A stretch of 64,000 nucleotides of DNA from Acidobacteriaceae bacterium (GTDB taxonomy: Bacteria > Acidobacteriota > Terriglobia > Terriglobales > Acidobacteriaceae), in NCBI GenBank assembly GCA_030038195.1, contig JASHPJ010000078.1, positions 62,001 through 126,000 on the forward strand. Reading direction: 5' to 3'. The position numbers and the translations under genes were made by a program. The notes under the pieces were generated by a model. That model searched no databases. It worked only from the letters and a program-made list of their open reading frames with translations, and was not told where the DNA came from. How positions within the stretch are numbered: position 1 is the first letter of the stretch; each line of letters begins with the position of its first letter. This document shows positions 12,953 through 18,802 of this stretch, piece after piece.

Positions 12953-14176
12953 ATGAGCCAGCCGGGAGCGAGCGCTTCAAACAACTCCATCGTTATGCAG
13001 CGCGGATGGCAGTTCGCCGTCGCGTCGGGAATCCTGGGATGGATTCTCGACGCCTATTACTTCTTCGTTCTCATCTTTCTTGTCGATGTGCTTGCAGCCG
13101 GCTTTCACGTTTCCAAGGCGGCCATCGTCTGGTCCATCACCGTTACGCTGGCCACGCGTCCGCTGGGCGCGCTGATCCTTGGCTCGCTTGCGGACCGCTA
13201 TGGACGCCGCCGCCCGCTGATCGCCTGCGTGCTGTTCTTCTCCATCGTCTCCGCGCTTACGCCGTTTGCGCCCAACTACGCGGTGTTTCTGATCCTGCGC
13301 GCGCTCTACGGCGTCGGCATGGGCGGCTACTGGGGCATTGGCGCATCGCTGGTCATGGAAAGCTCGCCGGCGCGCTGGCGCGGGCTGTTTTCAGGCATTC
13401 TGCAGTCGGGCTACTCGCTGGGCTACCTGCTGGCCGCGGCCGCCATCCCGCTGGTTGTGCCGCGCTTCGGCTGGCAGTGGGCCTTTCTCGGCGGACTCTT
13501 CATCGCCGCGCTGGTTGCGGCTCTCACGCTGCTTTCGCCCGAGTCGCAGGCGTGGAAGAAGACGCAGGCCGCCGGCCTCGGCAACATTGTGCGCGTTGTT
13601 CTGCATCACAAAAAGGATTTTGTCTATCTCGTGCTGCTGATGACCGTGGTGACCTGCCTCTCGCACGGCACGCAGGACCTCTATCCCGATTTTCTGAAGA
13701 GCGTGCATGGCTTTTCGGCCGCCATGGTCTCGAATCTTGCCATTCTGTACAACGTGGGAGCGATTCTTGGCGCGCTGGCCATCGGCCATCTCTCGGAAAA
13801 GATCGGCCGCCGCAAGTCGATCCTGGTTGCGCTCGCGCTTGCCGCCGTTTCCATTCCGTCGTGGGCGTTTGGCGGCTCGCTGCTCCTGCTCGCCGCCGGC
13901 TCGTTCGCAATGCAGTTCGGCGTGCAGGGCGTCTTCGGCGTGATTCCTGCGCATCTGAACGAGCTTGCGCCGGCCAGCGTGCGCAGCCTCTTTCCCGGAG
14001 TGGTTTACCAACTTGGCGTTTTACTGGGTGCGCCGTCAGTGAGCATCGAGTTCGCGCTGCGCCGCAATCTGGGCTACGCGTGGGCGCTCACCGCCTTCGA
14101 GCTGTGCGTGATCGCCGCGCTCTTCGTCATCTGCGGCCTGGGACCGGAACGCCACGGACGCGACCTGGCGAGCTGA
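12953..14176 (+). CDS. MFS transporter, sialate/carboxylate-type
   Basis: 407 residues with about 12 hydrophobic segments. The GWILDAYYFFVLIFLVD opening resembles the SHS (sialate:H+ symporter) family. The loop 2-3 motif reads GSLADRYGRRRPL, and a second-half equivalent reads GHLSEKIGRRKSI. The segment ALYGVGMGGYWGIGASLVME is also typical. Start ATG 12953 has GCGAGGA upstream. It is the last gene of the plus-strand carbohydrate cluster and probably imports the sugar acid or oligosaccharide handled by the GH88-like, SDR and Gfo/Idh/MocA enzymes. The substrate is not determinable. Confidence 0.85.
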   Translation: MSQPGASASNNSIVMQRGWQFAVASGILGWILDAYYFFVLIFLVDVLAAGFHVSKAAIVWSITVTLATRPLGALILGSLADRYGRRRPLIACVLFFSIVSALTPFAPNYAVFLILRALYGVGMGGYWGIGASLVMESSPARWRGLFSGILQSGYSLGYLLAAAAIPLVVPRFGWQWAFLGGLFIAALVAALTLLSPESQAWKKTQAAGLGNIVRVVLHHKKDFVYLVLLMTVVTCLSHGTQDLYPDFLKSVHGFSAAMVSNLAILYNVGAILGALAIGHLSEKIGRRKSILVALALAAVSIPSWAFGGSLLLLAAGSFAMQFGVQGVFGVIPAHLNELAPASVRSLFPGVVYQLGVLLGAPSVSIEFALRRNLGYAWALTAFELCVIAALFVICGLGPERHGRDLAS

Positions 14177-14196: not shown

Positions 14197-14234
14197 GTAA
14201 AAAAGATCGAGCCCTTCCCAAGGGAAGGGCTCGA
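14197..14234 (-). terminator. Intrinsic terminator of the S53 protease gene
   Basis: A perfect 13-bp stem, TCGAGCCCTTCCC (14207-14219) with its complement at 14222-14234 and a 2-nt loop, lies 21 nt after the protease stop. Read on the minus strand it is followed by TCTTTTTTAC, a proper U-tract. It may also slow plus-strand transcription leaving the MFS gene. Confidence 0.85.
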
Positions 14235-14255
14235 CACGCTGCTCGTGAAGCCCAG

Positions 14256-17200
14256 TTAATTCACAGTGACCGTAAAGGTGGTGCTCTCGGATGTGCTGGC
14301 CGGATCGCTGCCCTGTCCGGTTACCGTGAAGGTATAGGTTCCGGCGGATGTGCTGGAACCTCCGCCACCACCGCCGCTGCTCGATCCGCCACCGCACGCC
14401 GAGAGTCCGCCGAGCGAGGCCAGCAGGATCACCATTCCCAGCAGTCCGCGCCAACTGCGCCGCCGGGCCGGAATGCCAAAGAACAAGAGGAACGCGAGCG
14501 CCGTCCCACCTGCTGCTCTCAGCCAGCCTTTGCTGCCCGGCCTGATGTTGAGCATCGCGGTGGTGTTCGTCGTGGTGACTGTGGCTGTTCCGCTGCCGGT
14601 TGCCGTGCCGTTGGCATAGGTGATGGTTCCGGTGATGGAGCACGACGGCGGATCAGTGGGATTGGTCACGCTCGACGTAGTCAGCGTGCACGAGTTCAGG
14701 GTTACGGTACCCGTGTAATCCGTGCTGCTTGTGTTGCCGGTGATGGTTGAGGTTGCCGTTGAGCCGGGTGAAATTGCCGCGGGAGTTGTTGCCGTTAGCG
14801 CGTAAGCCGAAGCGGTTACGGTGACGCTGGCGCTACCGGTCCCTGCGGCATAAACTGCATCGCCGGAGTAGGTCGCTGTGATAGTTGCCGAAGGCGCAGA
14901 CAGGCTATTGGCCGGGATGGTGAAGCTGGCATTGGCATTGCCGCTGCCCAGTGCGGTCACAGCGCACGCCGCAGTGGAAGCTGTGCATGTGCCGGCGCTG
15001 AGAGACACGGTTCCGGTGGGGACTGCTCCCGATCCGCTCACATTGACGACTACGGCCAGAGATTGACCGGAATCGATGCTGGTTTTAGCCGGAGTAACGG
15101 TGATGGTCGGAGTCAGCAGAGTCACTGTTACAACCGTGATTGGTTCACTACCTGTAGCCGAGGTGTAGGTTGTGTCGCCGCTGTAGGTTGCAGTCAGCGT
15201 TACGGCACCAGCGGAAAGAGTATTGGCGGGTATGGTAATGGAGGCTGTCCCTTGGCTCGACAGAGTGGCTGCGGAGGAGCTGTACGATCCCGCCGTCAGG
15301 GTCACTGTGCCGGTAGGAGTTGCTGAGCCCAGAGGCCCGCTTACAGTAACTGTGACTGTTAAGGCGTTCTCTGAATTTACGGTTGTGGGTGCGTTCACTG
15401 CTACCGTCGGAGCAATGGCAGAGACCGTTACGCTGGCGGTAGTGTTCGCCGAGGCGTAGGTGCTGTCACCGCCGTAGGCGATGGTGAGCGTATCGGAGCC
15501 GACGGCCAGGCTGTTGGCTGGGATGGTCACCGTGGCGACACCGCTCGAGTTCAATGTTCCTGTCCCGTTCGCCCCTCCGCCGGAGACCGTTACATTGCCG
15601 GTAGGCGGTCCATCGTTCCCGGTGACGGTTACTGTGACGGTGAGAGCCGTATTGGCCGCGATTTTCGTGGCTGAGAGCTGCGCAGTCACCGTTGCCGTGT
15701 GCGTGCCTGCATTGGAGACCCATGCATTGACCACGTTGGCTACGTTGAGCGAGCCAAGACCAGTAGCCAGGTTATAGCCAGCGGTAGCGTTATAGGCCGG
15801 CGTAGTGCCGGAACTGATCAGCGTGCCGATTCCACCTGCGTCTGCAGAGTTAATGGCCGTGCAATTCGGAGAAATTGCTCCGGTGTACGCAGAGTCAGGA
15901 TCAACGTACCAGCCATTGCCGGTATAAATCGCTCCACCTTCTGCGCCTGCTTCTCCCAGGCTGCAGGGCATGGCGTTGGTACCCTCATCGATGCTCTGGA
16001 AGTAGCAACTGCTGGAAGTGGTCACCGATTCGGCGCTGCAACTGGAGTAAGTCTGCTTGGTTGCCAGCTCGTACAACTGCTTGTTCGGCAGACCCTGTGA
16101 CGCTCCGGCCTTTTGATTGATGAGAGCCATCACGCCGGCCATCTCCGGCGTGGCGACAGATGTTCCACCGATTTCGAGGGCCGTATCGGCCACGGTAGAC
16201 GCGGTGCAATCACCCCCAGTAACCGTCTCAAGGCAAATCAGCGTTGCGCTATCCAATGCGCCGTCGCCGGAGAAGAAACTCACGTCTGGAATGCCGCGCG
16301 AGGTCAGACTGCTGGTTCCCGTGATGCCTGTCTGCCAGGAAGGAACAGGCCAGCCGTCATTGGACAAGTTTACGGTGCTGCTGCCGACGTTCACTGACGT
16401 TGCGCTGGTTGTGCAACTCGGGTTGTCTTGATCCGAACTGTCATTATTGACGACGCAGTTGCTTTCACCGCCGCTGCCGCCCACCGTGTCTACATATCCA
16501 GCTAGCATGCTTTCTTGAGCGTCTTGTTCCCCGTATTGGTCAAGGATTGACTCGTAAATCTCATACCAGTCATTCTCAACAAAGTTGCAGGCTTCCTCAG
16601 GGGTGGATACACCGGAGATGCCGCTTGCTGAGGCGTAGGTTTCCAGGTATTTGCCTAAGATTGGATTTTCGCAGGTATCGTTCCACGGAATTTCTGGAAC
16701 ATAACCCTTTGCGCTGGAGTTGTTTGAGTTGTTGCTAGTGTAGTTCCAGTCGTTACTGGCGGCGCTTGTCGGGCAGTTGTCGACATTGCTGCCGCTGACC
16801 GTCGGTTGGCACCAACTGAAGTCCGTGCCGCCCACAGCGGTATTGAAGGGTGTAGAGGCCAGGCCGCTTACCGAAAGCCCGTACTGTGCGGAATAGGGAT
16901 TTCCGTAAGTATCTCCCCCATCGTCACAGGAAGGCGAACCGGAGTCGCCTGAGGCCACAAATACCGCGAGCCCCTCAGCCGCGGCCGTCTGCCATAGGTT
17001 GTAATAGTCCACGTTGCCTGTAGTGCCTTCGCCCAGTTCGCACTGCCCGTAGCTCACGCTCATGATGCGCGCGCCGTTGAGCGGCGAAGAAGAGTTGTTG
17101 ATATTTTCCTCGATATACTGCGCGTCATCTTGAATCGGGTCATTCGTTGCATCGGTGTTATAGCCCGAAGTGACCAGCACGACCTGCGCGCCTGGAGCCA

Positions 17201-18332
17201 CGCCGCCGGAGACTTCTACGTCAAGCGTGTTCTCTTCGAGGTCATTGATGCTGCACACAGCGGTGGAGGACGTGCTGGTACACACCCCGGGATCGTAACC
17301 ATTGGCGCCTTTGATCTCTTCCGGAGTTGTGCCGGCCGGCAGACTGAAGGCGCTCTTATAGCTGCTTACGTCGTTAGTCGAATTACACGGAGAACCGGAT
17401 TGACCGAGGCAGATATCGCTGGTTCCAGCAATGGCGATGATCTGGTTCGTTCCTGTGATATCTGCGTTCCACAGCGGCTGCACGTTGTAGATTGTGGCAA
17501 AATCGTTCGGGGAGACATCTTCTTCCGCGAAAGTGTCGCTGGTGGCCGGAAAGGTGAACAGTGGACGCGGCCCGGCCGTCTTGGCGGAAGCCGACGCGCC
17601 GATGGAAAGCGGACTCAATGAAGCCGCGCTGCCCCCCGGGCTCCCTACACGCTGCCATTTGCCCAGCTCGTGGTTGAATTGCACCACGCTGCCCACCTTG
17701 TGCAGCGGATGCGGATGGAAGTCGTGAAGCTGCTTGATGCCCACCACCACTGGCGCCAGCGCGGCCGGAATCTGTGGATTGATCATGTTGGCGATGTGCG
17801 CGACGCCGTTGACCGAGAGATGGTGAATCGAGGTATGGAAGGCGCTCTGCACCAGACCGGCCGTGCCGCTGAAGGTGATCGACATGCGGTCCTTGGCCGT
17901 GTGGGAAACGGTAAATCCCTGGCTGGCGAGCCAGTTGGTGATGGTGGCAATGTCGGCGAGCGAGGGGCCGAACCGCTCGCCGATCTGGTCGGCCGTGAGC
18001 CACTGGTGGAAGTAAGGCGAGCCCGAATCGTATTCGCCTTGCACATAGGCGTCGAAGGCCGCCTGCTGCTCAGGGCTGCGGCTCAGCACCAGGACCAGGT
18101 CCTGCATGGGCAGGGAAGAACTGACCGGGCCGCGGTCGTTGTGCGCGTTCGCAGCCGGGATCACGTTCCCGTGGAGCGTAACCAACTGGTTCTCGTCGAT
18201 GGGAGTGACAATGCGGACTTCAGGGCGGACTTCAGGCGCGGCCTGCTGGGCGATGGCGGCAACCGAAAACGACACGGCCGTAAGCGCCGCGCCAGCAAGG
18301 GCGCGCAAGGGGAGCGAACGCAAATTTGTCAT
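14256..18332 (-). CDS. Secreted S53 (sedolisin/kumamolisin) protease with Ig-like repeats and C-terminal membrane/lipobox-like tail
   Basis: 1358 residues from ATG 18332, where a signal peptide begins (about 1-29, ending SFSVAAIA-QQ). A longer in-frame start upstream gives a basic non-family extension. The pro-domain is at about 40-215. The S53 catalytic domain is about 265-875, with Glu367/Asp371 (ENTLDVE), oxyanion Asp463 (SGDSG) and nucleophile Ser725 (GGTSVATP). Many Cys and low-complexity Asn/Ser loops suggest disulfides and an extracellular site. Three Ig-like (Big_3-type) repeats of about 100 residues follow, then a beta-rich module. The tail has two hydrophobic stretches (about 1275-1289 and 1297-1311) separated by RRRSWR, then LSAC (Cys1313), a Gly/Ser run and a final beta strand. 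It is predicted to degrade proteins at acidic pH outside the cell, possibly while tethered. Confidence 0.92.
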   Translation of the reverse strand: MTNLRSLPLRALAGAALTAVSFSVAAIAQQAAPEVRPEVRIVTPIDENQLVTLHGNVIPAANAHNDRGPVSSSLPMQDLVLVLSRSPEQQAAFDAYVQGEYDSGSPYFHQWLTADQIGERFGPSLADIATITNWLASQGFTVSHTAKDRMSITFSGTAGLVQSAFHTSIHHLSVNGVAHIANMINPQIPAALAPVVVGIKQLHDFHPHPLHKVGSVVQFNHELGKWQRVGSPGGSAASLSPLSIGASASAKTAGPRPLFTFPATSDTFAEEDVSPNDFATIYNVQPLWNADITGTNQIIAIAGTSDICLGQSGSPCNSTNDVSSYKSAFSLPAGTTPEEIKGANGYDPGVCTSTSSTAVCSINDLEENTLDVEVSGGVAPGAQVVLVTSGYNTDATNDPIQDDAQYIEENINNSSSPLNGARIMSVSYGQCELGEGTTGNVDYYNLWQTAAAEGLAVFVASGDSGSPSCDDGGDTYGNPYSAQYGLSVSGLASTPFNTAVGGTDFSWCQPTVSGSNVDNCPTSAASNDWNYTSNNSNNSSAKGYVPEIPWNDTCENPILGKYLETYASASGISGVSTPEEACNFVENDWYEIYESILDQYGEQDAQESMLAGYVDTVGGSGGESNCVVNNDSSDQDNPSCTTSATSVNVGSSTVNLSNDGWPVPSWQTGITGTSSLTSRGIPDVSFFSGDGALDSATLICLETVTGGDCTASTVADTALEIGGTSVATPEMAGVMALINQKAGASQGLPNKQLYELATKQTYSSCSAESVTTSSSCYFQSIDEGTNAMPCSLGEAGAEGGAIYTGNGWYVDPDSAYTGAISPNCTAINSADAGGIGTLISSGTTPAYNATAGYNLATGLGSLNVANVVNAWVSNAGTHTATVTAQLSATKIAANTALTVTVTVTGNDGPPTGNVTVSGGGANGTGTLNSSGVATVTIPANSLAVGSDTLTIAYGGDSTYASANTTASVTVSAIAPTVAVNAPTTVNSENALTVTVTVSGPLGSATPTGTVTLTAGSYSSSAATLSSQGTASITIPANTLSAGAVTLTATYSGDTTYTSATGSEPITVVTVTLLTPTITVTPAKTSIDSGQSLAVVVNVSGSGAVPTGTVSLSAGTCTASTAACAVTALGSGNANASFTIPANSLSAPSATITATYSGDAVYAAGTGSASVTVTASAYALTATTPAAISPGSTATSTITGNTSSTDYTGTVTLNSCTLTTSSVTNPTDPPSCSITGTITYANGTATGSGTATVTTTNTTAMLNIRPGSKGWLRAAGGTALAFLLFFGIPARRRSWRGLLGMVILLASLGGLSACGGGSSSGGGGGGSSTSAGTYTFTVTGQGSDPASTSESTTFTVTVN

Positions 18333-18802
18333 GGTGGCTGTCCTGGTCCTCTTCCTTCGGAGAAACCCTCGAGTTGAAGAAAAGTTGTGTTGCCGCGGCG
18401 GGTTGCGGCAATCTGAGTGATGAGGCTGAGTGATGACTCGCGGCGACGCCCTTACGCACAGCCATCCGCGCCCACGGCGCAGAGTCCTGCGCGGAGAGGG
18501 TGTGCGCAACCGCACGGGCCGAAGATCGTACGCCCAAGTTCATTCCTGCACATTTCGCACTGCAGAACCGCAAAAATCAGGAGAAACTGGGAAAAGACAA
18601 GTTGTCGCAACCAAATGACCGGCGCATCTGGTCTGCTTAGACGATGCCTGTCTTTAAACGTTGACCGCATGAGGCAAATCGGCATGCTCCACTTTGCCGG
18701 AAAGACCTGAGCAGAAATGGATCAGCAGGTTTCCGATTGCAATAGACAATTCATTTCGGATTGTATATTATTCGTTTTCCTGATCATGCCAGGAGCCCCG
18801 TG
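18333..18802. other. Divergent intergenic region between S53 protease and lutA
   Basis: It carries the leaders of both genes. Visible features are a TTGCCGC/GCGGCAA stem (18390-18411), two direct copies of TGAGTGATGA (18414-18423 and 18427-18436), and the pair of TTTC-type repeats listed separately. The lutA-proximal part is distinctly AT-richer than the surroundings, as expected for a promoter. No gene is seen. Confidence 0.55.
18730..18765 (+). promoter_or_regulatory. Direct repeats upstream of lutA, candidate operator
   Basis: TTTCCGATTGCA (18730-18741) and TTTCGGATTGTA (18754-18765) match at 10 of 12 positions, 24 bp apart, about 40 bp before the lutA start. They lie in the AT-rich promoter zone, so they may be regulator sites for the lut-rha operon. 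A TATATT at 18764-18769 could serve as a -10 box. This is pattern only. Confidence 0.3.

Follow-up and report, generated by a model that had tools for sequence, protein, structure and literature searches.

We propose that the C-terminal tail of an S53-type protease, encoded in a 64,000-nucleotide stretch of DNA from an Acidobacteriaceae bacterium (hereafter the window), is a lipid-anchor module built into an Ig-like domain. Taken as a whole, this is the best explanation of our results, and we give it a probability of about three in four. It is carried by what was computed here: the tail recurs on unrelated proteins, its Cys and its charged loop are conserved, and its two halves match complementary parts of an Ig-like domain.

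The tail closes a 1419-codon frame that is open throughout (Table 1). Within this frame an ATG at 18332 (residue 62), chosen by inspection, is the likelier start, and the signal-peptide-like MTNLRSLPLRALAGAALTAVSFSVAAIAQQ follows it. Pfam finds Big_3_5 Ig repeats in the protease, and ENTLDVE at 428 and GGTSVATP at 783 agree by eye with what we take to be the S53 catalytic Glu/Asp/Ser motif. The tail itself reads ...GWLRAAGGTALAFLLFFGIPARRRSWRGLLGMVILLASLGGLSACGGGSSSGGGGGGSSTSAGTYTFTVTGQGSDPASTSESTTFTVTVN-stop (14256-14530, minus strand). The layout first noted from the letters is all there, in the order hydrophobic stretch, RRRSWR, second hydrophobic stretch, LSAC (codon of Cys1374 at 14394-14396), Gly/Ser run and beta segment, and the stop codon directly ends this C-terminal hairpin. 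Assignment of the N-terminal Ig part in Table 1 also draws on AlphaFold2 (AF2) strands and a VIA-align match, and its edges are approximate. The hairpin has an HMM match of 11.5 bits and AF2 strands at 163-173 and 180-189, and VIA-align agrees.

Table 1. Features of the S53-type protease gene and its tail (positions in the window)
Feature	Residues	Coordinates	Strand	Basis
S53 (kumamolisin-type) protease ORF, 1419 aa from GTG		14256..18515	-	Sequence, Pfam
Pro-kumamolisin activation domain	126-266	17718..18140	-	PF09286, E 3.3e-25; coordinates calculated from residue numbers
N-terminal part of the proposed split last Ig-like domain (strands before the insertion)	~1236-1322	14550..14810	-	HMM, 16.9 bits
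TM1, first hydrophobic stretch, AAGGTALAFLLFFGIP	1334-1349	14469..14516	-	Sequence; AF2 helix, model 102-117
Basic loop RRRSWR	1351-1356	14448..14465	-	Sequence
TM2 / putative lipoprotein h-region	1357-1373	14397..14447	-	Sequence; AF2 helix, model 126-141
Lipobox LSAC		14394..14405	-	Sequence; conserved in relatives
Gly/Ser linker	1375-1390	14346..14393	-	Sequence; AF2 pLDDT <50 at model 144-156
C-terminal beta-hairpin, last two strands (F, G) of the proposed split Ig	1391-1419	14259..14345	-	HMM 82-111

By its sequence the window tail is a member of a family already modelled at NCBI. It scores 62.5 bits against NCBIfam NF058595, 'invert_tail' (cut-off 37; E 4.1e-17), and the match spans positions 3-113 of the 113 in the profile and residues 1309-1419 of the protein. 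NCBIfam describes the model as a lipo-invert putative C-terminal anchoring domain. Because of this E value, the same order of elements in the relatives and a Cys in 102 of 102 copies, we judge the arrangement to be far beyond chance. The tail had been put forward as a possible novel sorting or anchoring signal. The anchoring half of that idea holds up, as the module is portable and its lipobox is oriented for the lipoprotein enzymes; the novelty does not, since NF058595 exists. A literature search found no paper with the invert_tail name or the accession NF058595. Nothing in the sequence sets the window tail apart from NF058595, and the split-Ig anatomy described below was set beside the model's name and description line alone. 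We offer this anatomy as the new part; the tail family itself is known.

The original prediction called for a search for the same tail on other exported proteins, and took restriction of the tail to this one protein as an argument against it. The tail is not so restricted. The genome of the window (G000) has 14 NF058595 matches at E<=0.01, with 11 above the cut-off; one of the three under it, L031, is an internal match and not a tail. In six relatives of the same family, with all candidates scored, we found 13, 10, 17, 28, 6 and 2 matches at E<=1e-6, counts that include some partial or under-cut-off matches. Scored in the same way, two genomes of the class that belong to other families had no match at E<=1e-6.

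The phylum was surveyed in 396 genomes at E<=1e-7, with up to 11 candidates scored per genome, and 51 genomes had a match. All 44 sampled genomes of the window's family matched, none of the three other genomes of the same class did at this threshold and depth, and matches were found in seven of the 349 genomes in the rest of the phylum, two of them strong (G216 and G272, one other family). These strong tails from outside the family, L134 (G216, 81.1 bits) and L135 (G272, 75.5 bits), are the one match in each genome and may mark transfer or an older origin. Fourteen control genomes gave no match at E<=1e-7; at the looser E<=0.01, 11 of the 14 gave weak matches, none above the cut-off. A plasmid collection did not match the tail at E<=0.01. 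When species genomes were scanned with the TM1 pattern, nine of the 104 matched stretches encoded a relative of the query, and the full tail was present in all nine, which come from Acidobacteriaceae, Acidobacteriales, Terracidiphilus or 'Acidobacteria' records.

The exported proteins that carry the tail are of unrelated kinds. We scanned 26 tail-bearing proteins, picked for variety, with Pfam, and three had no Pfam match. The domains found were the S53 pro-domain, multicopper oxidase, NHL propellers, DUF7948 with SBBP propellers, FG-GAP, PNGase A, glycosyl hydrolase 71, Vps10/BNR, Big_1 and several Ig types. Given this variety of N-terminal domains, the tail is, on these domain assignments, a portable C-terminal module on unrelated exported proteins. 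It has the look of a surface anchor that a single family of soil bacteria reuses from protein to protein. Its breadth bears on protein display in these bacteria: every one of the 44 sampled family genomes has it, the count in a single genome reaches 28 matches in the six fully scored relatives, and its carriers are large exported enzymes and repeat proteins.

The membrane hairpin and lipobox look like an insertion within the last Ig-like domain, and the short piece after the Cys would therefore be the missing part of that domain. The final beta-rich segment of the first description is then not an element of its own: its match is to the two closing strands of the Ig domain begun before TM1. By eye across tails, the stretch before TM1 looks like an Ig domain minus its last two strands, and the C-terminal GTTAGTYTVTVTGTSG...TVTLTVQ resembles those strands. 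In searches with profiles of both halves, the spacing between the halves is bimodal. The gap was less than 15 aa in 33 places, all internal and none C-terminal, and the halves were 60-119 aa apart in 125 places (106 distinct), of which 118 were C-terminal. The seven split cases away from the C-terminus comprise four in which adjoining internal repeats were merged by the script and three that stop 5-7 residues before the stop codon.

An Ig HMM of 111 positions, built from 31 uninterrupted internal domains, was then matched to both halves; the comparison is partly circular, as the uninterrupted domains were located with the tail profiles. The tails came from a list of 124 ORFs, for which a Cys was required and in which antisense and unrelated frames were included. 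A composition rule dropped 17 to leave 107, and restoring L047 and L053 and removing five named non-tail ORFs gave 104. The HMM matched the part before TM1 in 103 of the 104 tails (iE<0.1), with the match ending at 81-89 in 96, and matched the part after the Cys in 94. Counting post-Cys matches of any strength there were 98, and 69 of these begin at 79-85. The post-Cys piece alone scored at least 10 bits in 98 of 104 tails, compared with 5 of 1040 shuffled pieces. Coverage of the HMM is thus complementary, with positions 1 to ~85 before TM1 and ~81-111 after the Cys. Because the edges of both matches cluster across the 104 tails, the insertion appears to fall at almost the same point each time, in the loop that leads into the final two Ig strands. 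The junction is less sharp in the window protein, where the first match runs on to 99, beyond the proposed junction, and the second covers 82-111. Ten of the 104 tails had no separate significant post-Cys match, and several of these read as normal hairpins. L011, from the S53 paralog in G000, has an end that is clearly different. Partial NF058595 matches (74-113, 76-112 or 82-111) lie inside proteins (G257:C1, G084:C9). In L146 (upstream of 3647) and L125, intact Ig copies of the same type stand directly before the split copy, in tandem in L146, where they are a possible substrate for the spread of the insertion between proteins.

Structure models are consistent with a split domain. The window tail and the L146 tail were each modelled with AF2 over 190 residues from 10 sequences, with a mean pLDDT of 72.9 and 75.6, respectively, and a pTM of 0.58 in both cases; among the five models for the window tail, two scored poorly (pLDDT 54.7 and 47.8). 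In both tails the Ig strands are followed by a helix pair and a disordered linker, and the chain closes with two strands predicted with confidence; the Ig parts are mostly at pLDDT 77-92. VIA-align, used as a second look at the candidates of Foldseek, placed residues 7-190 of the window model on the Ig domain of the Micromonospora sialidase (Z 10.4, rmsd 2.2 A, 98 residues) and did the same for residues 11-190 of the L146 model (Z 12.2, rmsd 2.1 A, 97 residues). Only ~80 residues precede TM1 and the alignment extends as far as residue 190, so part of the C-terminal hairpin is included in it. The target is one contiguous Ig domain (chain residues 404/405-502). Across entries of the Micromonospora viridifaciens enzyme (PDB 2ber, 1wcq, 1eut) the same predicted fold extends over 97-98 residues at 2.1-2.3 A, except that the sialidase domain is continuous whereas that of the tail is, on our reading, split. 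Foldseek itself gave no match for the L146 model at E<=0.001. Many unrelated Ig-like chains fill out the VIA-align lists at lower Z, which is no surprise for so common a fold. We presume the sialidase domain to be of the NEW3 type; one uninterrupted Ig domain of L067 matches PF10633 weakly, under its cut-off.

Conservation around the Cys was determined in 102 distinct hairpin-ending ORFs for which a Cys was not required; these loci were picked by tail similarity and are not fully independent. All 102 C-terminal copies have a Cys in the interval from the last hydrophobic stretch to the hairpin (one in 90, two in 12), and the overall Cys content of these ORFs is 1.1%. Position -1 is G, A or S in 97 of the 102, and in 57 the Cys is 1-2 residues past the hydrophobic core. 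The -3 position of the lipobox is loose (L in 34 of 102), and the distance from the Cys to the hairpin is 10-34 in the relatives. In 96 ORFs there are at least two hydrophobic stretches, and in 92 of these the loop that joins the last two carries a net charge of at least +3. In the window protein this loop, RRRSWR, is predicted to be cytoplasmic and to double as the n-region of an internal lipoprotein signal. The Gly/Ser run was rejected as a signal in itself, since its length and letters vary among tails.

These figures bear on the simplest competing explanation, which is that the tail is a plain two-TM anchor at the inner membrane, its Cys unlipidated or else lipidated without cleavage, and its chain whole. 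Two hydrophobic stretches and a charged loop would be sufficient for such an anchor on their own, and both halves could complete the Ig fold without any cleavage. However, it leaves unexplained why the Cys, and nearly always a G, A or S before it, is kept in tails that are otherwise divergent (34-46% identity between the window tail and ten aligned tails). We consider a plain anchor unlikely, while still regarding lipidation of the Cys without cleavage as possible. A lipoprotein simply fused to the end of a secreted protein, with the post-Cys piece an independent lipopeptide unrelated to the Ig before TM1, is very improbable. TM2, the lipobox and the Gly-rich linker do resemble an ordinary lipoprotein signal, but the pieces before and after the insertion cover the two parts of one Ig profile and superpose together on a single Ig domain.

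The enzymes that could process the tail are present. G000 has two matches to Lgt (PF01790; contigs C132 and C104) and one to LspA, and LspA was found in 44 of 44 family genomes, in single copy in 42. Within the searches for LspA, exosortase and rhombosortase, a dedicated sorting peptidase was rejected as the tail is not accompanied by a second LspA, and exosortase was rejected as a requirement because PF09721 is absent from five tail-bearing genomes (G000, G007, G023, G321 and G394). Since LspA is mostly single-copy, exosortase is missing from these five and no rhombosortase scored above its family cut-off in 21 family genomes, the general lipoprotein pathway is the simplest candidate for tail processing. 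Sortase-like processing, with TM1 and the Arg loop acting as a GlyGly-CTERM/PEP-CTERM/MYXO-CTERM-like signal and the remainder discarded, gains something from the TM-then-arginines order, from a GG that 25 of 104 tails have close to where TM1 begins, from exosortase in 10 of 21 family genomes and from rhomboid-like matches under the rhombosortase cut-off in 20 of 21. We hardly credit it, because the five tail-bearing genomes named above have no exosortase, none of the 21 genomes has a rhombosortase over the cut-off, and the sequence after the loop is conserved and finishes as an Ig strand.

Our model for the Ig-embedded lipid anchor goes beyond what was computed, and we infer from it how the tail would insert into the membrane, its topology, lipidation and cleavage, and its final location. 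We propose that, in the exported protein as synthesised, the membrane hairpin, lipobox and flexible linker break up the last Ig domain in the loop that precedes its final two strands. TM1 would enter the membrane, the short arginine loop would remain cytoplasmic and TM2 would exit, leaving both Ig halves outside and free to co-fold. As TM2 and the preceding arginines are laid out like a lipoprotein signal peptide, the Cys would be processed at the outer face by the general enzymes, first Lgt and then LspA. Thanks to the linker, the final beta-hairpin could fold back onto the Ig domain and complete it, which would keep both this domain and the enzyme at the membrane surface.

Cleavage by LspA at the tail Cys is plausible. 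If it occurs, Cys1374-Asn1419, the last 46 residues, would form a lipopeptide of their own that stays bound through the Ig fold, and TM1-TM2 would remain on the main chain unless another protease took them off. We put forward only tentatively, at somewhat less than even odds, the full form of this idea, in which there are two mature chains and strand complementation with the enzyme's Ig domain is all that holds the lipidated hairpin (F, G). If it is true, a large exoprotein would be held by a lipid without a covalent link, and the enzyme would be set free or sorted elsewhere once the strand contact or the TM hairpin is lost. With LspA cleavage, lipid anchoring would work through non-covalent strand complementation, from which surface display could also profit. 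Read as a split Ig, the 'putative anchor' becomes a mechanism that can be put to the test, in which a loop of an Ig domain has received a membrane hairpin and a lipobox. We know of no described anchor of this kind, and a literature search found none.

N-terminal lipoproteins, which are processed by Lgt, LspA and Lnt, have basic residues, a hydrophobic stretch, [GAS]-C and a Gly/Ser linker, in the in-to-out direction. The window tail is like them in RRRSWR, GLLGMVILLASLGG and LSAC, taking that consensus from general knowledge. Its lipobox is unlike theirs in being internal, with the Cys at 1374 of 1419, ~45 residues from the C-terminus and behind another TM. Cleavage would also make the C-terminal fragment the lipoprotein and not, as in N-terminal lipoproteins, the main body.

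MYXO-CTERM offers a second comparison. Many exported proteins of a single lineage end in this module, which has an invariant Cys, a TM and arginines, and lipidation followed by intramembrane cleavage has been proposed for it (PMC11980579). That proposal is a useful parallel for the tail. The order differs: as described there, MYXO-CTERM runs Cys-TM-Arg and has a cytoplasmic end (PMC11980579), whereas the tail runs TM-Arg-TM-Cys-linker-hairpin and would end in an extracytoplasmic Ig strand.

Two further observations concern the S53 genes. A second S53 protease of the same genome, outside the window (L132:3476-7321, contig C6), has the membrane hairpin and SCGGG; its last segment is unusual, without the standard hairpin pattern, and it scores 32.2 bits, under the NF058595 cut-off. 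L137 is another S53 gene of G000. In the window, a 13-pair stem with a T-run (14206-14235, minus strand) lies between the S53 gene and a convergent MFS-transporter-like gene (12953-14176, named by inspection), and is likely a terminator.
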